Source: a virus
Virus record (IMG/VR): IMGVR_UViG_3300004231_000010
Location: 1 to 26,503 of that record
DNA: 26,503 nt
Strand: one strand, 5' to 3'
In this document: positions 2,265 through 26,503 of the stretch, piece by piece
Position numbering within the stretch: the first letter of the stretch is position 1
Layout: each line of letters begins with the position of its first letter
The notes under the pieces: generated by a model
Told to the model about the DNA's origin: nothing
The model's input: the letters and a program-made list of their open reading frames with translations, nothing else
Databases searched by the model: none
Translations under genes and position numbers: made by a program

Positions 2265-4421
2265 TCAGGCGCCGGGGTTCTTGTAGGAGGACTTGTATTC
2301 CACCCAGGCGATGCCGTAGTCCAGGCGAACCTTCCAGCGGGTGCCGTCGACGGTGAAGCCGATCTCGTTCTCCAGGTACGGCTCCTGGTTGCCGTCGAGG
2401 AAGGCCACCTCGATGGCGGGGGCCACCTGCGGGTCAGCGAACGCGTACCAGGCGGTGCCCGTCAGGCGCGGGCTGCCGATGGTGCGGCTGAACATGCCGT
2501 AGCTCTTGTTGTTGCGCTCCAGCTTGTTGGAGGCATCGGGGTCGTACTTGCTGCCGTTGATGACGTCGGCATCGCCCTTCAGGCCCAGGGGGCCCAGCCA
2601 GATGCTGGGCTGCAGGTCCAGGAAGTCGTTGCCGGACACGTCCTTCTGCGAACCCATGGCGGTGCGCACAGCGTCGAACGAGGCCACGCCGGGCGCCGCG
2701 CCGGCGCCGGCCAGGTTGCCGTGGTTGGCATGGAACAGGGCCACGCCGTCGCTGTAGTTGCCCGGGGTGTTGATCAGGGCGTAGACATCGCTCTCGATGG
2801 TGCGGCGGGCAGCGCGGCCCAGGCCGGCGGCCAGGCTGCTGAAGGCCGACAGGTCATCGTTGATGATGGCCTGGCGCGACAGGTTGATGATGTTGCCCTT
2901 GGTGGCCGCGATGATGCTGGCCTTCTCGCCATCGGGGATGGTCTTGTTCTTGAACTCGCCCACCTCGGTCAGGCTGTCGAGGTTGCCGAAGCTGCCGGTG
3001 CGGTAGCGGTTGTGCGCGCGGAAGTCGCTGACGGTGCCGACGTTGCAGAACAGGCTCCAGGTGTCGGCCTGGGTGGCGTAGGCGTTCTGCAACACCTTGT
3101 GCATGGTGGTTTCGAGCAGGATGGGGAAATCGCTGCCGGTCTGGGTGAAGGCCAGCGCCACCACCTCCATCTGGCCCATGCCGTCGATGTTCTTGCCCAT
3201 GCGGCGCAGGCTGGCTTCGGCCAGGCCCAAGAGCTTGCGGCCGCGCAAGGGGTTGGCCGAACTGGCGATGATCCGGTCGCCCTTGCGGTCGTTCAGGCCG
3301 GCGCGGGCCATGATGGCTTCGCAGGCCGCGGCGCGGAACTTTTCGGCCTCGTCCTCGGTGGTGGTGACGCGTGCGCCGCCATTGGGGTTGGCCGGGGTGA
3401 CACCCTTGGCCATCAGGCCCAGCAGCTTGCGGCCGGCGGCCTCGGGCGTGCAGGTGGTGTCCTGCTCGCACTGGTCGGCCATCGTGGCGAGCTCGGTCTG
3501 GTCGATGTCGTTGCGCGTGGCGAACGGGGCGAACTGCGCGCGCACGTCGGTGCGGCGGCGGGCCTCGGCCTGAACGGCCTCGGTGCGGGCAGCGGCCAGG
3601 GCCTCATCGGTGGCCGCCGGCTGGTTGGGTTGGGGCATGGAAGTCCTTGCGGTTTGGGCGGCAGCGGCCGCGGGGGTGGAAACGGAAGCGGCAACCAGGC
3701 CCAGGCGCTGGGCCATGGCCTGGGGGGTGGCGTAGCGCGACAGGTCGAGCGCACGGGTACCGCTGGCCTGCACGGGCAGTGCGCTGGTGGTGCGGGTGGC
3801 CAGGCCGGCATCGACGGCATCGGCGGCGGTGAAGAAGTGGTCCACGCCGTCGGTGAGCCAGGCGGTCATCACCTCTTCGGCCGTCTGGCCGGTGGCCGCG
3901 GCGTAGCTGGTGGCCATGGCCCGGGCGTACGTGTCCAGCTGGTCGGCTGCGATGCGCAGCTCGGCCGCATTGCCGCCGGTGTAGGTCCACGGGGCGTGGA
4001 TCATCATCAGCGCGTTGTCGGCCATCTCGCGCTCGTCGCCGGCCATGGCGATCAGGCTGGCGATGCTGTAGGCGATGGCGTCGACGCAGGTGGTGACGCG
4101 GGCCGGATGGCGCTTGAGCGCGTTGTAGATGGCGATGCCATCGGGCACCGACCCGCCGATGCTGCAGATGCGCACGGTGATCGAGTCGGCCTGCACGGCC
4201 TGCAGTTCCTCGATGAAGCTGGCAGCGGTGACGGTCTCTTCCCACCAGTTGGGGCCGATGTCGCCGTAGATGTAGATCTCGGCCTCGGCGCGCGGCGGCT
4301 GGTCACCCCGGGCCAGCACCTGGCGGGTGGGCCGAACGGTGTACCAGCGGCCATCCTGCGCGGACGGCGTGCCCTTTGCGGGCGGCTGCGGGTTGGGGTT
4401 TTCGGTGGGCATGGCGCGCAT
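2265..4421 (-). CDS. Prohead protease / major capsid protein fusion
   Basis: This 718-residue polyprotein has two parts. Residues about 45-215 are a ClpP/S14-like serine protease: the 'GDIG' strand, 'SIGGSVPDGIAIYNAL' (about 87-102), a nucleophile-type motif AIAYS with Ser119, and MIHAP with His142. After an Ala/Gln/Glu-rich, scaffold-like helical stretch (about 250-300), residues from about 360 form an HK97-type major capsid protein. It contains 'SANPLRGRKLLGLAEASLRRM', 'TRYRTGSFG'-type sequence and a 'VRLDYGIAWVEYKSSYKNPGA' end. Such fusions are known in lambdoid phages: the protease matures the head and is cut from the shell subunit. The start may be Met1 or Met4 (4412); neither has a strong ribosome site. 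The frame is intact, with no frameshift. Confidence 0.9.
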   Translation of the reverse strand: MRAMPTENPNPQPPAKGTPSAQDGRWYTVRPTRQVLARGDQPPRAEAEIYIYGDIGPNWWEETVTAASFIEELQAVQADSITVRICSIGGSVPDGIAIYNALKRHPARVTTCVDAIAYSIASLIAMAGDEREMADNALMMIHAPWTYTGGNAAELRIAADQLDTYARAMATSYAAATGQTAEEVMTAWLTDGVDHFFTAADAVDAGLATRTTSALPVQASGTRALDLSRYATPQAMAQRLGLVAASVSTPAAAAAQTARTSMPQPNQPAATDEALAAARTEAVQAEARRRTDVRAQFAPFATRNDIDQTELATMADQCEQDTTCTPEAAGRKLLGLMAKGVTPANPNGGARVTTTEDEAEKFRAAACEAIMARAGLNDRKGDRIIASSANPLRGRKLLGLAEASLRRMGKNIDGMGQMEVVALAFTQTGSDFPILLETTMHKVLQNAYATQADTWSLFCNVGTVSDFRAHNRYRTGSFGNLDSLTEVGEFKNKTIPDGEKASIIAATKGNIINLSRQAIINDDLSAFSSLAAGLGRAARRTIESDVYALINTPGNYSDGVALFHANHGNLAGAGAAPGVASFDAVRTAMGSQKDVSGNDFLDLQPSIWLGPLGLKGDADVINGSKYDPDASNKLERNNKSYGMFSRTIGSPRLTGTAWYAFADPQVAPAIEVAFLDGNQEPYLENEIGFTVDGTRWKVRLDYGIAWVEYKSSYKNPGA

Positions 4422-4700: not shown

Positions 4701-5111
4701 TTAGAGCTCTTCGCCACAGGCCCAGCACTCGGCGCTGTAGAGCGCGTCGACGCCGGCGCCACAGCTGCCGCAAACCGGGCTGCCGCTGTAGTCGTGTTCG
4801 TCGAGACAGTCGTCGTCGCCGGTCCCGTCGTTCTGCGCTGTCGGGGCGGCGGCGTTGAAATGGTCCCGGCCCCCCTGCATGCACTCGGTGGCGCAGTGGT
4901 GCCAGCCGGGGCCTCCTCGCTTACCGTAGTCCGTGGCGCCGCAGGTCTGGCACTCGAACACGGCTTGGCTGCACCGGCCGTCGCCGACTTCATCGGGGTG
5001 GGGGCAGGCCCTGCCGCCGATGCTGGCCCACTGGTGCCGACCGTTGGCGCAGGCCTCGCTGCCCAGCGCAGTGGATGCTTCGCGGATCAGGGATTGCAGG
5101 GCGAACGTCAC
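4701..5111 (-). CDS. Zinc-ribbon-like protein of unknown function
   Basis: This 136-residue protein starts at a GTG overlapping the TGA of the upstream gene (GTGA). It is Cys-rich. An N-terminal part has 'GRHQWASIGGRACPHPD' and CQTCGATDYG; the C-terminus has CGSCGAGVDALY followed by ECWACGEEL, a typical paired CxxC...CxxC zinc ribbon (about residues 113-133). The middle is acidic and low in complexity. The protein probably binds metal and perhaps nucleic acid or a partner protein. It forms a coupled set with its two neighbours. No specific function can be given. Confidence 0.6.
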   Translation of the reverse strand: MTFALQSLIREASTALGSEACANGRHQWASIGGRACPHPDEVGDGRCSQAVFECQTCGATDYGKRGGPGWHHCATECMQGGRDHFNAAAPTAQNDGTGDDDCLDEHDYSGSPVCGSCGAGVDALYSAECWACGEEL

Positions 5112-6277
5112 AGCGCCTCCCCCTTCGCTGCCGGGGCAACACCTTCAAGCACGGCCCGGACGACACACGCGGCGTTGTCGCCGGTGGCGTCCTCCAGCAG
5201 CGCAGTTATCGCCTCGTCCACGGCTGGCAGATCGCGGATGCGCTCGCACTCCGACCATGCTGGCAGCGGTGCGGCGCTGGGCTGGGCGGTGGGTGCCGCC
5301 ACTGCGGGCGCTGATGCGCGGACGGCCAGCGCCATCTCGATGCCGTCCACGATCTTGCGGTGGAACGCTTCGGCATCCACCGTCTCGGCGTTGTATCCAC
5401 CGACTCCGAGCCAGCACGCCAGCTTGCGCAGCACTTGCTCGGCTGGCGTCTCGTCGGGATATGGGTTCCGGTCGATGGGTCGCAGCGGGTCCTGCATCGG
5501 GTCAATCCGCGCCGACACTGGCGCTGCCTGCGGTGCTGAGGCGGCCAGGCCATAGCGGTCGCGCATGTCGGCCGCAAGAACCGGGTGAGTTGCTTCCACG
5601 GCATCGGCATACGCTGCCAAGGCCAGGCGGGCGCACGGGTCGTGGTCAACGTCCAGCACGAAGTGCTCGCAGCCATGATGCTTGCCGCCCAGCTCGCTGC
5701 TGCCATCGGTACGCCGTACGTCGAACTTGTGGAACACCCCCTGCTGCTCGGCCGGCTTCGTCATGTCCCGCTCGGGAAGCGGGTCAGGCCCGCCGCAGCC
5801 GCAGAAGGGAAAGCGGCCGCAGTACTCCCTTCCGCCGCATGGCGCCTGCGACTTTCCTGGCGCTGCCTGCGGTGCTGCGAACACGCTCTGCACCTGTTCT
5901 GAGGTCCAGTCGGGCAGCAGGCTCTTGGCAAATGCCAAGTCGGTCCTGAACCGCGCCTTCACACGATCCACGGCATCGGTCAGCGGTGCTGGCGCTGTGG
6001 TGACGGACTCTGAAGCCGACGCCGGCACATCACGCGCCGCGGCGATCAGCTGCAACAGGTCTTCACGGCGAACGCCCTTGATGGCAACACCTTTGTGGTC
6101 AAGCTGGTTGAGGGTGCCACACAGCCAGTCGTCGAGCAGCTGGCTGGCAGACAACTCGGCCAGGCCCACGCGTGGGCAATGGGCTGCCACGCAGCGGCCG
6201 GCGATGTGGTCCATGCCGCAGCGGTTGGGTCCGCGCCGGCAGGCATTCTGAATGGTGGCGGCTTCGTCTTCGGTCAT
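5108..6277 (-). CDS. Mosaic hypothetical phage protein with Cys/His clusters
   Basis: This 389-residue protein begins MTEDEAATIQNACRRGPNRC; the start is supported by an AAGGAG site 9 nt upstream. It looks like several short modules joined by Ala/Pro linkers: a Cys-rich N-terminus (CGMDHIAGRCVAAHC), a helical 'LLQLIAAARDVP' segment, a central 'CGGREYCGRFPFCGCGG' knot, and then a module with 'GGKHHGCEHFVLDVDHDPCA' and 'ATHPVLAADMRDRYG'. The C-terminal part has two helical blocks. The central His/Cys module occurs in unrelated phage proteins as a small cassette. No enzyme motif is evident. It is not a portal: it lacks that size and fold pattern. Confidence 0.6.
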   Translation of the reverse strand: MTEDEAATIQNACRRGPNRCGMDHIAGRCVAAHCPRVGLAELSASQLLDDWLCGTLNQLDHKGVAIKGVRREDLLQLIAAARDVPASASESVTTAPAPLTDAVDRVKARFRTDLAFAKSLLPDWTSEQVQSVFAAPQAAPGKSQAPCGGREYCGRFPFCGCGGPDPLPERDMTKPAEQQGVFHKFDVRRTDGSSELGGKHHGCEHFVLDVDHDPCARLALAAYADAVEATHPVLAADMRDRYGLAASAPQAAPVSARIDPMQDPLRPIDRNPYPDETPAEQVLRKLACWLGVGGYNAETVDAEAFHRKIVDGIEMALAVRASAPAVAAPTAQPSAAPLPAWSECERIRDLPAVDEAITALLEDATGDNAACVVRAVLEGVAPAAKGEAL

Positions 6278-6302
6278 GGGTGCAGGCTCCTTCGTGTGTA
6301 TG

Positions 6303-6626
6303 TCAGGCACCTGGCGCGCGTGCGCCGCAGATGCGGTAGACGGTGGTGGGGCTGACGCCGTGCTGCTGGCAGACCTGGATGAGGTTCTTGCCGTTGAACT
6401 GGCGCCGGATCTGGCGGTCACGGGTGGCGGTGTCGCTGGCGGGCACGTAGATCTCGCTGCTTCCCCAGCGCTGGCGCAGGCCAGCGCCCAGGCGGGCAGC
6501 GCAGTCGGCCGCGCTGTGTGGTGCACGCTCAGCGAAGACTTGCTCGCAGACCTCGGCCAGGTCGGCCTCGAACTGAGCGACGAGCTGCTCGCGGTGCTCT
6601 CGGCTCTTGGGGTTGGGCTTCGACAT
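6303..6626 (-). CDS. Mor/C-like transcription activator
   Basis: This 107-residue protein begins MSKPNPKSREHREQLVAQFE. The C-terminal part (about 75-102), 'DRQIRRQFNGKNLIQVCQQ' followed by 'HGVSPTTVYRICG', matches the helix-turn-helix of the Mor transcription activator family. In Mu, Mor and C turn on middle and late promoters. The N-terminal helix with 'EADLAEVCEQVFAE' fits the dimerisation half. Its ATG overlaps the TGA of the upstream gene (TGAATG). It sits inside the late head-gene run rather than in a regulatory region, which is unusual; it may drive the capsid and tail genes downstream. The family call is good, the target is inferred. Confidence 0.75.
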   Translation of the reverse strand: MSKPNPKSREHREQLVAQFEADLAEVCEQVFAERAPHSAADCAARLGAGLRQRWGSSEIYVPASDTATRDRQIRRQFNGKNLIQVCQQHGVSPTTVYRICGARAPGA

Positions 6627-6911
6627 TCAGGTCCCCATGAATTGGACGGCCCGGTCACCGATCAGGTCAGCGACGGTCGCATCGCGCAGGTAGGTACGCT
6701 GAAGCCGCCAGCCCTTTGCTTCTCGACGCGACTCCGATTCGCGCCACTCGCTGGCCGATCCGCGGTAGCCCGGCGGGGGAAGGTCGGCTGCAGGACTGGC
6801 GTCGGAAACCATCACTTCGATTTCGATCTGCAGCACCAGACGGCCAGTGACGGCTTGACGTCGGCAGCGCATCGCGCCGGTGGGGTGCTCTCGGGTTTGG
6901 AAAACGTGCAT
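6627..6911 (-). CDS. Hypothetical phage protein
   Basis: This 94-residue protein begins MHVFQTREHPTGAMRCRRQA. The ATG at 6911 is preceded by an AGGAG site 5 nt away, so it is preferred over the in-frame ATG at 6941, which would overlap the terminase end. A beta-rich N-terminal half ('GRLVLQIEIEVMVS') is followed by a charged helix with 'ASEWRESESRREAKGW'. No family recognised. It overlaps the Mor-like gene by a TGAATG junction and so is probably co-translated with it. It could be a small partner of that regulator, but there is no direct sign of this. Confidence 0.6.
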   Translation of the reverse strand: MHVFQTREHPTGAMRCRRQAVTGRLVLQIEIEVMVSDASPAADLPPPGYRGSASEWRESESRREAKGWRLQRTYLRDATVADLIGDRAVQFMGT

Positions 6912-9652: not shown

Positions 9653-9942
9653 CACATAACCCCCGTAGAAACCCCGCGCCGGACCCATGCGGTAGGGTTC
9701 GAATTGCCCGTGCGCCCCATTTCCCAGGAGGACCCATCGACCCCCCCCGGGGGGGCAGGCGGCCGGGGGAGGGGGCCGGCCTCGGCGAGGACGGCCCACC
9801 GAGCCCCGAGAACGGCCCTCTGGCGGCCGATCGCACTGCTGGACAGGGCACGGCCTACCCCCAACTCTTCAAACTCTCCTACCCCCTCTTTTCTTCGAAT
9901 GAATAGAGGGGGAAGGGAGAGGCGCGCGCGCGACGTGTGTGC
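9653..9942. other. Non-coding segment upstream of terminase; cos candidate region
   Basis: This 290-bp stretch holds no convincing gene. It has a C8-G7 block at 9741-9755 (14-bp perfect palindrome), an adjacent GGCCGG...CCGGCC patch (about 9761-9781), a purine/pyrimidine hairpin at 9874-9921 with perfect 8-bp core arms CCCCCTCT/AGAGGGGG, and an alternating CG run at 9922-9933. In lambda-type phages with Nu1/GpA terminases the cos site lies just before the small terminase gene, so cosN may be here. This is by position only. Confidence 0.4.
9874..9921. repeat. Imperfect inverted repeat (hairpin)
   Basis: The arms are CTCTCCTACCCCCTCT (9874-9889) and a purine arm AGAGGGGG followed by AAGGGAGAG (9905-9921), with a 15-nt AT-richer loop containing TTCGAA. 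The 8-bp core next to the loop is perfect. There is no T-run on either strand that would make a convincing terminator. Confidence 0.5.
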
Positions 9943-10168
9943 CAGTTCCGCCGCGGTTCCGCGTCGGTTCCGTCGTAAGTCGTTGCAGTTCCACGGGTTC
10001 CGCGGTTCCGCCGGGTTCGCACGTGAGAGAAATTGATTCTGCTGGGACCGGCCATGAAGCCCCGTGATGCGACGCGTAACGCGCACACGGGGAAATGTGG
10101 CGGAACTGCGGAACCCGTGGAACTGCAACGACTTACGGCGGAACCTTGGCGGAACCTTGGCGGAACTG
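9943..10168. repeat. 226-bp palindromic element with twelve GGAAC/GTTCC motifs (candidate iteron origin or terminase site)
   Basis: The left arm 9943-10012 and right arm 10099-10168 are inverted copies, 70 bp each, 63 of 70 positions matching. The inner 42 bp differ at only two positions, and both would be G-U pairs in one RNA strand. Each arm carries six (A/G)GTTCC motifs, all in one direction per arm. In the right arm the three outer motifs repeat every 11 bp as TTGGCGGAAC units. The 86-bp centre holds a smaller hairpin (about 10060-10092, CCCCGTG/CACGGGG). The element begins 1 nt after the helicase stop codon. Arrays of short direct repeats next to a primase-helicase recall the P4 alpha gene with its ori/crr iterons; next to a Nu1-type terminase they also recall cosB R sites. 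Confidence 0.85.
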
Positions 10169-10169
10169 A

Positions 10170-12920
10170 TCACGATTCACCCCCGTCGCTACCCTTGCCA
10201 TCGCCGCCCGGCCGCCCGGTATGGCCGCAGTAGCGGTTGAGTGGTGTGGCAAATGCACGGACGCAGTCCACCGCCCAGTCCCCCAGGGTCACACCGGTCG
10301 GAGGCCCGCCGGGCAAGTGGATGAGGATGACCAGATACTTGCGCTCGCCCACCTCTTTGTCGCCAGCGATGTCCGGCAGCTTCACCTTGCGCAGCTCGAA
10401 AGGCGGCGGCCGCAGCACACCAGCGGCATCACGCACACGCTGCTCATTGGCCCAGCGGTTGATCTCGCGCACAAAGGTCGCCTGGTCGGCAGCCCACTTC
10501 ACACCGGTGTTGTCCACCCAGCGACGAAAGGCGCGAAACACCTGCTCACGCGAGCAGGCCCAGCGGGGCACATCCAGGTAGCCACCGATCCACTCGGCCA
10601 CAAACCGCTGCGTCGGCTTCCAGTTCGCCTCGATCAGCAGCTGCTTGGCACGGGTCATCAGCGGCTTGGTGTGGCGGTCAAAATCGCCCACCGGGTAGCG
10701 CTGCAGGTAGTGCAGCCACTTGCCGATGCCATCGCCGTGCAGAAACGCCTTGACCTCGTCGTACAGCGCGGGGTCAGCCTCCAGCGGCGTGTAGACCACC
10801 AAGTAACGCCGGTCGCGGTCTTCCAGCGCCAGCGGCATGTCTTCGTTCGACGTGAAGACCACGTTGGCGTGGTTCGTCTCGTACCGCACATCGCAGTGCA
10901 TGGCCCGGATCGGGAACCGATGCTCCTGCGTCACGATCATCTTGAGCCGGTTCTTGTTGTGGTACAGCTCCGACTTGCTCACCACCTCGTCGCCCACGAT
11001 GGCCAGCGTGCGGCTCAGCCAGCCGGCGTTGTACTTCTCTTCCAGCTCGGTCTGCCCCACCGTCTTGCCCAGGTCGCCGAAGCAATCGCGCCAGGCGTCG
11101 AAGAACAGGTTCTTGCCTGTGCCCTGGCTGCCGTGAAAGATCAACGCCGTGCGCATCTTGGCGCCCAGGTTCTGCAGCGGGTAGGCCTGCCAGCACAGCA
11201 CCCAGTGCATCACTGCATCCACATCGTCAGCCTGGCCACTCTCCTGGGGCTCTTCACCGTCCGCCCCGCCCACCAGCACGCTTGAGCCGCACAAGTGGCG
11301 CAGCAGCCGCAGCATCGGCGCCACCTCTTCATCTGTGCAGGACACCGGCTGGACCCTGATGCCCTGGAACAAGTTGATCTTGTCCTCAGGCACCTCCACG
11401 CCGGGCTCGAACACCAGGTCTTCCGGGTACACCATGCGCCGACGAGTGCTTGCCAGCCAGAAGTTAACCGGCGTGGCGCCGCAGGCCAGGCGCAGGTGCG
11501 GCACTTCCACAAAGCGCGCCATCTCCAGATCCCACACCTGATTGCTGCCGTACACCAGGGCGTAGCGATCCAGCATGCGGTCGATCGCATCCCAGAACTC
11601 AGGTGGGTAGACCTTGGCTTTCTTAGCCTTGGCCGGCTTTTCGTCACCATCATCACCGTCCGGCGTGGCAGCAACCACTGCACCCACCGGCGGATCACCC
11701 GCCCCGCCCCCTTCCCCGGGCGCGGGGGCATCGTCGCCGCCATTTTCAGCACCGCCCTGCCCGTCCAGCGCAGCAGTAACGGATGCATCCCAGGCCGCAT
11801 CGTCATCGAGCTCACCATCGTCGGCTGTCGGTGCTGCAGCTGGCGCCACCGGTGCGGCAGCGGCCGCAGGGCCAGGGGTCGACCTGCCACCCGAGCGCTG
11901 CTGCACCACCACGCCACACCGCTGGGCCAGCCATAGCATCGCGGCCTTGGGCGTGTGCGCCAGGCCGGGCGCCCACTTCAGCACACAGTCGATGGCCGAG
12001 TAGGACTCTTCTTCGCCAAAGTCGTGGATACCCTCGGGCGACAGCTGCAGGTCCTCCTGCAGCTTGCGGCCCAGATCCTTGCTGGTGACACGCCAGCCAT
12101 AGGGCGTGTGCCGGGCGGCCGGAAAAATCTCCTGCACCCACCGGTCCAGGCAGGCCAGCGCCTCATCGTTCACCCGGCGGAAGTCATCGCCGGCAGCCCC
12201 TGGGCCACTGGTGGCCGACGCGGCCCGCGGCGCAGGCGGTGGCACAGCGGCCGGGCGCTTCGCCTCCTTCGCCGCGTCCTTGGCAGCCTGCACCACGCTC
12301 TGCATGTAGGCCATCGCGTAGGGCTTGATGGGCAGCACCTCGGCCGGCGCCGCGTCCAGCCGCTGGCCGGTGCATGTGAAGTAGCGGCCCCCGCAGTACA
12401 CCTCCACGCCCACATCGTCGTGCTTGAAGCTGTCGCACTGGCCGGACACGATGATGTGCACGCCCAGGCCCGACGGCGACCACTCGGCAAAGCTGGTGGC
12501 GCATTCCATGATGGCCTGCTGCTCGGCCGACGGTGCGCCGGTGTCCTTCCAGTCCAGATCGATGCCGATCAGGCCGTCACCGTCGAGAAAGGCAAAGCCC
12601 ACCCCGTCAAAGCCGCGCTGCTCCTGGATCTGCGCACACACCTGGTCAAAGCTGGCCAGGGCCGCACGGTCCAGCGCATCACCCAGATCCGCATGCGGCA
12701 TGGCCGCGGTGGGCTTGCCGTCGCGGGGCTTGCCCTTGGGCCAGCCACGCAGCTGCCCATTGATGTAGAAGGGCGTCTTGGCCGGCTTGGGCCTGCCCGG
12801 CACCTGCACCAGGCGCCACACCAGCCACTGCGGCAATACCCGCATCGCCTCGGGCATGCCGGTGCGCAGCCGCTCTACCAGGGCTGCGCGCTCCGCACGC
12901 CAGTCTGCTCCTGACGCCAT
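10170..12920 (-). CDS. Primase-polymerase / SF3-type helicase replication protein
   Basis: This 916-residue protein has an N-terminal archaeo-eukaryotic primase (PrimPol) domain: metal-binding 'GIDLDWKD' (Asp121, Asp123) and 'SPSGLGVHIIVSG' with His155, as in phage NrS-1-like polymerases. An Ala/Pro/Asp-rich linker spans about 340-435. The C-terminal helicase has Walker A GSQGTGKN (597-604), Walker B 'LAIVGDE' (about 639-645) and sensor-type 'VVFTSNED'. The protein would unwind and prime phage DNA at its origin. Its ATG overlaps the stop of the zinc-ribbon gene (TGATG). The iteron-like inverted repeat begins directly after its stop codon, so the protein may act there. Family assignment is firm; the origin link is inferred. 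Confidence 0.9.
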   Translation of the reverse strand: MASGADWRAERAALVERLRTGMPEAMRVLPQWLVWRLVQVPGRPKPAKTPFYINGQLRGWPKGKPRDGKPTAAMPHADLGDALDRAALASFDQVCAQIQEQRGFDGVGFAFLDGDGLIGIDLDWKDTGAPSAEQQAIMECATSFAEWSPSGLGVHIIVSGQCDSFKHDDVGVEVYCGGRYFTCTGQRLDAAPAEVLPIKPYAMAYMQSVVQAAKDAAKEAKRPAAVPPPAPRAASATSGPGAAGDDFRRVNDEALACLDRWVQEIFPAARHTPYGWRVTSKDLGRKLQEDLQLSPEGIHDFGEEESYSAIDCVLKWAPGLAHTPKAAMLWLAQRCGVVVQQRSGGRSTPGPAAAAAPVAPAAAPTADDGELDDDAAWDASVTAALDGQGGAENGGDDAPAPGEGGGAGDPPVGAVVAATPDGDDGDEKPAKAKKAKVYPPEFWDAIDRMLDRYALVYGSNQVWDLEMARFVEVPHLRLACGATPVNFWLASTRRRMVYPEDLVFEPGVEVPEDKINLFQGIRVQPVSCTDEEVAPMLRLLRHLCGSSVLVGGADGEEPQESGQADDVDAVMHWVLCWQAYPLQNLGAKMRTALIFHGSQGTGKNLFFDAWRDCFGDLGKTVGQTELEEKYNAGWLSRTLAIVGDEVVSKSELYHNKNRLKMIVTQEHRFPIRAMHCDVRYETNHANVVFTSNEDMPLALEDRDRRYLVVYTPLEADPALYDEVKAFLHGDGIGKWLHYLQRYPVGDFDRHTKPLMTRAKQLLIEANWKPTQRFVAEWIGGYLDVPRWACSREQVFRAFRRWVDNTGVKWAADQATFVREINRWANEQRVRDAAGVLRPPPFELRKVKLPDIAGDKEVGERKYLVILIHLPGGPPTGVTLGDWAVDCVRAFATPLNRYCGHTGRPGGDGKGSDGGES

Positions 12921-24763: not shown

Positions 24764-25029
24764 GCACCATCACCATCGTCACCACCCGGCCAGCCGTGCT
24801 GCCGCTGGAAGCTGCGGCGGCCTACACCTCGCTCAGCCCCACCCTGCTGCAAGAGGCCACACGCACGGACCCGAGCTTTCCGCGCCCCATCCAGCTCAGC
24901 GCCCGGCGCGTGGGCTGGCTGGTTGCCGAGCTGGACGCCTGGCTGGCCACGCGGCCGCGCTCGCAATGCCTGCCCCCGGTAAACAGCGGCTACGGCAGGG
25001 CCGGCAAGCCTGCGGCCGCTTCCAGCTGA
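24760..25029 (+). CDS. AlpA-like helix-turn-helix protein, probable excisionase
   Basis: This 89-residue protein begins MSTITIVTTRPAVLPLEAAA. Residues about 17-60 ('AYTSLSPTLLQEATRTDPSF' then 'PRPIQLSARRVGWLVAELDA') follow the AlpA/MerR-like pattern: helix-turn-helix, then a wing with Pro-Arg-Pro and a W-x-x-x-E-L-x-A-W helix. Such proteins are recombination directionality factors or integrase regulators. The start overlaps the DUF5131 stop codon (ATGA), making it the last gene of the early operon. Its 3' end overlaps the integrase 3' end on the other strand by 40 bp, fitting an integrase partner. Confidence 0.78.
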   Translation: MSTITIVTTRPAVLPLEAAAAYTSLSPTLLQEATRTDPSFPRPIQLSARRVGWLVAELDAWLATRPRSQCLPPVNSGYGRAGKPAAASS

Positions 25030-26276
25030 TCCGCAAGCAGGCCCAGCCAGCGCACGCGCTCGGCATCGTAGGTGTGGCGGTTGTAGGTGCCCTGGGTCTC
25101 GGGCGGAAGATGCCCCAGCAGCGCCTCCCCCACATCGTGCGGGCAACCCAGCCCAGCCAGCACCGTGCGCGCCGTGGCGCGCAGCCGGTGGGCTGACCAG
25201 CCCTCCACCGGCCAGCCCGTTCCCCCCCGCCGCTGGCCCTTGATGCTGGTGGGCATCCAGTCGTACACCGAGCCGCTGAAGGCCTTCTGCGTGTAGGGCT
25301 CGCCCTCGGTGTTGGGCCACATCACCGCCCCGCCGTCGACGCCGGCCGCGTGCCGCTCCACCACCTCGCGGGCCCGGCCGAACAGAGGGATGCGCAGATC
25401 CACCGCGCGCGCCACCTTCGCGTTCTTGGTCAGCGCCTTGGGCAGCGTGGCCCACAGCACACCATCGGCATCCTCGGCCAGGTGCTTGGGCTGCAGGCGC
25501 AGGATCTCGACGCCACGCGCACCCGTCCACAGGTACATCACGAGCAGATCAAAGCCGTGCCCGTGGAAATTCTCAGCCGCCCAGCGCAGCACCTGGCCGC
25601 ACTCGGCCAGCGTCAGCACGGCATGGGACAGCCCCTGGTGCTCGCCGCCGATCACCTTGCCCTTGCTGCGCAGCCTGCCGTGCATCAGCTGGCGCCACCA
25701 GTTGGGCACGTCGGGGTCCATCCGGCCTGAGTCCAGCCCGTGGTCCCAGGCTGCACCCAGCAGGCTGCGCAGCTTGCTGGCCATCGTCGGCGTGCCGGCT
25801 CGGGCCTTCAGCACGTCATACGCTCGGGCGCGGTTGATGCTGGCAGGTTTCGCGCTGGCCAGCTCCGGGTCTTCCTCGAACAGCAGCTCATACGCGCGCT
25901 TTGCCTGCCTCAGGCTCGATGCCGACCGGCTGCCGGCCAGCACGTCGCGCACGTAGTTGTCGCAGATGTCCTTCACCGTGATGGCATCCTGGGCCTGGGC
26001 CAGCGCGGCCGCTTTGGCCGCACGCTTGTGGCTGGCTGGGTCGACGCCCGTGGCCTTGCCATCGCGCAGGGCTTGCCAGCGGGACACTGCATCGCCCGCG
26101 GACATGGCCGGCCACCGGCCCAGGGCCGTCTGCTTCATCCTGCCGGCGGCATCCTTGTACCGGTAGACCCAGCTTTTCCACTGCGGCGCAGCCACCAGGC
26201 GCAGCCCGGCGCACCCGTCGATAATCATGTGGTCGCCCGCCGCCAGCTGCTTGGCTGCCCGTGCGTCGAAGAACAT
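24990..26276 (-). CDS. int: Tyrosine integrase (P4-type, DUF4102 N-terminus)
   Basis: This 428-residue protein starts at the ATG preceded by GGAGG 8 nt upstream; a GTG 9 nt earlier is less likely. The N-terminal arm-binding domain (DUF4102, about 5-80) shows 'DGCAGLRLVAAPQWKSWVYR' and 'ALGRWPAMSAGDA'. The core domain has Arg254 ('TGARGVEIL'), 'HRLRATARTV' with His363 and Arg366, 'LLGH' with His389 and a tyrosine nucleophile at Tyr398 or Tyr403 ('TYNRHTYDAERV'). It would integrate and, with the AlpA-like factor, excise the phage. No disruption is seen, so it should be active. The adjoining tRNA gene suggests the attachment site is near. Confidence 0.94.
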   Translation of the reverse strand: MFFDARAAKQLAAGDHMIIDGCAGLRLVAAPQWKSWVYRYKDAAGRMKQTALGRWPAMSAGDAVSRWQALRDGKATGVDPASHKRAAKAAALAQAQDAITVKDICDNYVRDVLAGSRSASSLRQAKRAYELLFEEDPELASAKPASINRARAYDVLKARAGTPTMASKLRSLLGAAWDHGLDSGRMDPDVPNWWRQLMHGRLRSKGKVIGGEHQGLSHAVLTLAECGQVLRWAAENFHGHGFDLLVMYLWTGARGVEILRLQPKHLAEDADGVLWATLPKALTKNAKVARAVDLRIPLFGRAREVVERHAAGVDGGAVMWPNTEGEPYTQKAFSGSVYDWMPTSIKGQRRGGTGWPVEGWSAHRLRATARTVLAGLGCPHDVGEALLGHLPPETQGTYNRHTYDAERVRWLGLLADQLEAAAGLPALP

Positions 26277-26297
26277 GCAAACCACCTCCGAAAAAAC

Positions 26298-26444: not shown

Positions 26445-26503
26445 GCGGGCGTAGCTCAATGGCAGAGCTGAAGCTTCCCAAGCTTAAGACGAGGGTTCGA
26501 TTC
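26445..26503 (+). tRNA. tRNA-Gly(CCC), 3' end cut by window edge
   Basis: It begins GCGGGCGTAGCTCAATGGCA. The D arm GCTC...GAGC, the anticodon arm GAAGC-TTCCCAA-GCTTA (loop U33, anticodon CCC) and the T arm start GAGGG-TTCGATT are all visible. The sequence closely follows E. coli glyU. About 59 of about 74 nt are seen, ending in the T loop; the acceptor 3' strand is outside. A pair CGGAA/TTCCG (26432-26443) stands just before the gene. The gene points away from the prophage. Confidence 0.88.

Follow-up and report, generated by a model that had tools for sequence, protein, structure and literature searches.

An inverted iteron array directly 3′ of a phage primase-helicase gene as a probable replication origin of the SaPI/PICI kind

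The window, meaning the whole stretch of DNA analysed here, is a 26.5-kb virus record (26,503 nt) that represents a partial phage genome. On its minus strand it encodes a 916-aa AEP primase-helicase, which we propose as the initiator. A DksA/TraR-type zinc-finger gene and a regulator gene lie 5′ of the primase-helicase gene in the same direction, and an S24 repressor gene runs in the opposite direction to this group. Beyond the 226-bp element that adjoins the 3′ end of the primase-helicase gene follow terS, terL, and a fused ClpP-capsid gene, and an integrase gene is found at 24990–26285. The presence of TerS, TerL, ClpP-capsid, and integrase genes places the window outside the PICI satellites, which are small elements that lack capsid and tail genes of their own. 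The order repressor, regulator, TraR/DksA, primase-helicase, array is common to Halomonas phage H4907 and Pseudomonas phage Turba, and PG1 shares the repressor-to-array gene order in essence. The features of the locus are as follows.

9922–9942, no strand: broken alternating purine-pyrimidine tract GCGCGCGCGCG-ACGTGTGTGC, 21 nt, outside the distal arm
9943–10168, no strand: inverted iteron array, candidate replication origin (whole element), 226 bp
9943–10012, no strand: left (distal) arm, with six GTTCC at 9945, 9956, 9967, 9988, 9997, and 10005
9972–9987, no strand: left-arm spacer with core TAAGTCGTTG, which sets the outer and inner iteron groups apart; mirror copy at 10124–10139
10013–10098, no strand: centre between the arms, candidate melting region, A+T 41% vs. 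31% in the window
10099–10168, no strand: right (gene-proximal) arm, with six GGAAC at 10102, 10110, 10119, 10140, 10151, and 10162
10170–12920, minus strand: AEP primase–PriCT/SF3 (DUF5906, VapE/D5-like) helicase, 916 aa, proposed initiator
10221–10598, minus strand: predicted C-terminal winged-helix domain of the initiator (about residues 775–900), proposed iteron reader

Several other genes of the window were also noted. The gene at 2265–4421 (minus strand, 718 aa) encodes a ClpP-type protease fused to a major capsid protein, and Stenotrophomonas phage S1 has a similarly placed "major head and protease protein". Between terL and the capsid gene, in the place expected for a portal, a 516-aa protein (5108–6658, minus strand) had no match beyond a partial one to a PHROG named sulfatase-modifying factor; it is probably the portal under a misleading family name. 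At 18627–20741 (plus strand), a 704-aa protein carries ParB N-terminal and HTH domains together with an H-NS C-terminal domain in a single chain. A partial tRNA cut by the record end (26445–26503, plus strand) lies beside the integrase gene and is likely the attachment site.

The layout of the element given in a preliminary description was recomputed and stands. The two 70-bp arms are inverted copies with 63/70 identical positions, each with six motifs in one orientation, and the element, which ends at 10168, lies 1 nt beyond the helicase stop codon (10170–10172, minus strand). The 11-bp pitch reported for the three outer motifs of the right arm is true of the left arm too, and the complete iteron spacing is mirrored, reading 11, 11, 21, 9, 8 on the left and 8, 9, 21, 11, 11 on the right. 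Under a laxer cut, the arms grow to 83 nt at 84% identity (9943–10025 and 10086–10168). All seven arm mismatches fall outside the 12 motifs, which occupy 30 of the 70 arm positions; the hypergeometric chance of every mismatch missing the motifs is ~0.016 (worked by hand). The order of the element was also said to exceed chance, with which two measures agreed: it holds 12 GTTCC/GGAAC sites, a number that did not exceed 4 in any 226 bp when the window was dinucleotide-shuffled 100 times, and RNA folding of the element gave z = −16. The hairpin ascribed to the centre is present in the predicted fold as CCCCGTG...CACGGGG, and the centre also contains an 11-nt alternating purine-pyrimidine run (10079–10089). 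A spacer core of the form TAAGT-TTG was found in L002, L003, L012, and other relatives as well. A repeat scan detected no second array in the 26.5-kb window, itself part of a phage.

The preliminary description had proposed a search of relatives for arrays beside the primase-helicase gene. Three virus contigs (L002–L004) with primase identities of 49–51% carry an inverted array in the same place, built from other motifs. Scans of prokaryotic genomes and virus contigs yielded 115 further loci, of which the named ones were nearly all Proteobacteria. Position was assessed in 118 non-redundant loci with a related primase-helicase, named phages included, with the array score defined as how often the commonest seven-mer occurs within 300 nt of the 3′ end of the primase-helicase gene. 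The mean score was 6.75 directly 3′ of the gene and 2.34 elsewhere. The locus maximum fell at the gene end in 99/118 loci, with differing motifs, and in 93/118 the gene-end score was equalled nowhere else. Phages Turba and pAN were scored as negative in this count since a low-complexity filter hid their GTGTTGGG arrays, and both became array-positive once the filter was relaxed. In H4907 (L128), a TCAGACAG array lies 3′ of the primase gene at about 27,560–27,830. Five distant relatives (M6, MW2, Ab18, KPP25, and Lacusarx), all with a homologous helicase core, had no array by this measure (scores of 2–3 against a background of 2.1–2.3). M6, MW2, and Ab18 keep a C-terminal stretch of similar length beyond the matched core, so the absence of an array there does not follow from a missing domain. 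A DNA polymerase gene is annotated nearby in four of the five. Phages and plasmids were also searched for the element at the DNA level, with no match, as expected given that the motif changes from phage to phage, and the plasmid relatives of the primase were distant.

Whether the next gene is a terminase, HNH, tail, antiterminator, or holin gene, the array keeps its place behind the primase-helicase. This bears on the reading of the element as a cos/pac packaging site that would be recognised by TerS, the small terminase subunit encoded by the next gene. Such sites are often near terS, and in the window TerS and TerL genes do follow the element. In L004, however, a tail-type gene is next (by eye), in H4907 an antitermination protein gene, and in Turba a hypothetical protein gene and a holin gene; the array remains with the primase-helicase in each, and terS is 2.5–3 kb off in H4907 and Turba. 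The similarity of the motifs also follows the C-terminus of the initiator (see below), a comparison that was made with the initiator alone. We regard a packaging site as extremely improbable.

The repeat itself differs between phages, and the left and right arms match within each locus. About 20 motif classes were distinguished among the loci, including GCGTAAC, GCGGAAC, CTGCACA, CCACTTA, and CGGGAGA; the L033-type motif is GTGCAGG. The question raised earlier of whether both arms co-vary was answered in 87 loci with protein identity below 75%, and they do. A left arm shared 16.1 six-mers with its own inverted right arm vs. 4.4 with those of other loci, and the summed sharing was 1398 compared to 394 ± 31 for permuted pairings. 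Spacing is conserved as well. In 41 GTTNC-class elements, sites recur at 8/9, 17, 38, 49/50, and 60 from the innermost iteron in both arms, and the ladder of the window (8, 17, 38, 49, 60) is an exact fit. Loci with unrelated motifs show a kindred ladder of 9, 12, 12, 32, 9 (L033 and L117; similar in S1). Same-strand iteron spacings cluster at 8–9 and 11–12 bp and avoid 10. Six iterons per arm also occur in other motif classes (L033, L117, L123, and phage S1). Among the GTTNC-class elements, 12/41 left arms and 12/41 right arms have six sites, five being about equally common and more than six rare. The count is sensitive to the pattern used, as the arms of the window contain 6 and 6 GTTCC sites and 8 and 7 GTTNC sites, the latter numbers including chance or degenerate sites.

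Joint change of the arms would fit a hairpin as well as a binding-site array, and the two are separated by the conserved geometry of the ladder. The hairpin reading holds that the polycistronic transcript forms a long stem acting as a terminator, an RNase III site, or a regulatory RNA. The predicted fold is very stable (z = −16, as above), and the two mismatches in the inner part of the arms are indeed G-U pairs in RNA, as had been claimed. The suggestion of selection on a folded RNA nevertheless fared poorly among relatives, many of which have shorter or gapped arms and keep the motif, its orientation, and its spacing instead, also where the arms form no continuous stem. The fully mirrored 70-bp stem of the window is among the longest of the set, and ungapped arms of this length are the exception (median inverted-repeat score of 21.5 in relatives vs. 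52.5 in the window). In L079, of the L072–L079 group, one mirrored iteron position holds an A.C mismatch with the GTTRCGC motif kept (by eye). An Rfam search of the window, judged by the gathering score, matched only the partial tRNA at 26445, leaving the element with no Rfam family. A structured RNA is, in our judgement, very unlikely to be what the element encodes.

Base composition and purine-pyrimidine alternation were compared across the family. The longest alternating purine-pyrimidine run averaged 19.8 nt in the elements and 8.5 nt elsewhere (86 loci), and in 74/86 loci it ranked within the top 5% of its own locus. The window is weak in this feature, with only the 11-nt run in the centre and the broken 21-nt tract outside the distal arm. 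A role of the alternating tract in duplex opening is conceivable. The family-wide rise in A+T is only 1–11 points across the region of the element.

The preliminary description proposed that the element is read by the C-terminal part of the primase-helicase, and the protein was examined by structure prediction. The model of residues 440–916 had a pLDDT of 92.5 and matched the NrS-1 primase-helicase (Z 27.6, 4.0 Å, 363 residues) and SaPI5 Rep (7ola; Z 17.5, rmsd 4.4 Å, 339 residues). Pfam Pox_D5 gave weak matches in 16/59 members. The C-terminal domain modelled alone had a pLDDT of 88.7, and a structure aligner returned nearly all winged helices for it, with Z up to 6.1, among them the RFX DNA-binding domain (1dp7; Z 5.8, 2.7 Å, 68 residues). 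A profile of the domain gave a weak RFX5 match (E 0.011), and Foldseek, run with just this domain, found nothing significant. The winged-helix assignment rests mainly on topology and the RFX5 match, given the Foldseek result and aligner Z scores of no more than 6.1. The C-terminal structure of P4 alpha was absent from the structure-match lists. Both the helicase and the winged-helix folds of the initiator are predictions.

The association between motif and protein was evaluated in 86 loci by comparing motif matrices with protein identity, a first k-mer measure having been noisy. Motif similarity correlated with identity over residues 785–900 (rho 0.44) and over the helicase core (rho 0.35). 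With the core held constant, residues 785–900 retained a partial rho of 0.33, a value reached in 0/1000 permutations. The association peaked at residues 850–889 (rho 0.50, partial 0.41), which in the AlphaFold model form the second strand of the wing and the first part of the last helix. By sequence comparison, the predicted C-terminal winged-helix domain tracks the motif better than the helicase core does, and since the stretch of DNA that codes for the end of this domain lies next to the array, linkage alone could give part of the association. Within CGNAAC, the variable base was T in 45 cases, A in 2, C in 5, and G in 3, and with so few non-T cases no particular residues could be tied to the base.

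Together, the position of the element, the joint change of its arms, and the tracking of the motif by the C-terminus lend support to the proposal of an origin read by the primase-helicase. We consider it quite probable that the element is the replication origin of this phage, of the SaPI/PICI-like kind and in a temperate phage. The element could otherwise be an accessory site like crr of P4, at which the initiator would control or stabilise initiation while the strands open at a second site in the phage. The annotated crr of P4 adjoins the 3′ end of alpha and has inverted type I repeats; an ori with these same repeats is ~4.5 kb away. Our scan, run on P4 as a control, picked up both sites: 7 copies of GTGAACA at crr, behind alpha, and a further array at ori. 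It found no second same-motif array in the window, which covers part of a phage, nor in S1, H4907, or Turba, whose genomes are complete. SaPI/PICI origins, moreover, have a single 3′ array (PMC6092414). An accessory site of this type appears improbable to us. The analogy with P4 alpha drawn in the preliminary description extends to the placement and inverted arrangement of the iterons; as the ori proper of P4 lies elsewhere, PICI/SaPI origins are the better analogue.

That the array 3′ of P4 alpha is crr and not the origin proper still counts against the origin reading, as does the only modest A+T richness of the centre. GC skew was tried as evidence for an origin and dropped. The cumulative skew of the window peaks at 8–10 kb, at the element, with a sign opposite to that of a classic bidirectional origin, and this peak was not reproduced elsewhere: no consistent flip at the element was seen in the mean over relatives or in the complete phages S1, H4907, and Turba.

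If the element is the origin, the primase-helicase, made from the gene directly upstream, would bind the iterons through its C-terminal winged-helix domain, which would prefer GGCGGAAC arrays. Each of the six iterons in an arm could hold one C-terminal domain of a hexamer, with a second hexamer, facing the first, on the mirrored arm. The two rings would then open the centre and depart in opposite directions as bidirectional helicases, and the N-terminal AEP domain together with host proteins would begin synthesis. What the analysis shows are the position of the array, its inverted iterons, the conserved spacing, the joint arm change, and the C-terminal association, together with the predicted helicase and winged-helix folds; the binding to DNA, the loading of a single hexamer on each arm, the opening of the centre, and the bidirectional start are inferred. 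One hexamer per arm would be an attractive reading in view of the six iterons per arm and of SaPI Rep, for which two hexamers on the origin have been described (PMC7581432). The fuller proposal, that the 6+6 ladder is the footprint of a head-to-head double hexamer, that iteron and wing co-diversify, and that the alternating tract aids opening, is a tentative one that we rate as possible and lean somewhat against. If iteron and wing do change together, one protein scaffold would serve many mutually incompatible origin types.

The SaPI/PICI-like kind of origin is already known. The present survey describes a closely similar layout across complete temperate phages and prophages, mostly of Proteobacteria; as far as our searches show, the literature searched describes neither the wide occurrence of such origins among complete temperate phages nor the ladder nor the co-diversification. 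The set comprises 86 non-redundant natural initiator-iteron pairs in about 20 motif classes with a conserved ladder, which makes a switch of winged-helix specificity and two-hexamer loading on duplex DNA testable. GC skew can mislead in phages of this type, and the array provides a simple rule for finding their origins. The genome paper of H4907 placed the origin by GC skew at 40,400 (PMC10580944), vs. ~27.6 kb for the array.

Among the systems compared, the NrS-1 primase-helicase (PDB 6k9c/6k9e) is the closest solved structure to the modelled helicase region; the origin proposed for NrS-1 depends on an 8-nt sequence that the primase recognises (PMC7102993). The replication protein orf904 of pRN1 likewise combines AEP, SF3, and winged-helix domains, and a stem-loop 3′ of its gene is essential (PMC4234260). 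It differs in being from an archaeal plasmid for which iterons are reported absent and a large loop is required (PMC4234260). Bordetella phages BIP-1 and BPP-1 resemble the window: they too are phages whose initiator is of the AEP-PriCT-SF3 type and has an inverted repeat 3′ of its gene. For BIP-1, the stem-loop was proposed as the origin and origin-like iterons were reported absent (PMC4234260); by eye, the BIP-1/BPP-1 stem consists of inverted TTTGCCTCG repeats, which would join it to the same origin class. The array does not adjoin the gene in these phages but lies ~450 bp downstream, in BPP-1 (L132) about 450–570 nt 3′ of bbp29 and beyond an opposing gene, and it was missed by our scan because this is more than 300 nt from the gene. 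P4 shares inverted type I iterons 3′ of a primase-helicase with a C-terminal winged helix, and differs in the Toprim-type primase of alpha (PMC4234260), in the 120-bp direct repeats of crr, and in having its origin proper at a separate site.

The nearest likeness is to the SaPI/PICI origins, which are located, as is the Cch2 site, immediately after the 3′ end of the initiator gene (PMC6092414, PMC7581432), just as the element of the window lies a single nucleotide from the stop codon. The SaPI origin, in the work of Ubeda et al. as cited in PMC7581432, pairs the Rep helicase with 3′ iterons, and the C-terminal domain of Cch2 of SCCmec binds short repeats 3′ of its own gene (PMC7581432). Two sets of short iterons are common to both, six GTTCC and six GGAAC in mirrored order in the window, as may be a self-loading helicase with C-terminal reading of the iterons, given the match of the modelled helicase to SaPI5 Rep. 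SaPI/PICI iterons flank an A+T-rich region, for which the centre in the window (41% A+T vs. 31% in the window as a whole) is a weak candidate. Unlike the satellites, the window belongs to a phage genome with its own terminase, capsid, and integrase genes, and its two arms mirror each other almost perfectly, their 6+6 iterons keeping to a fixed ladder.
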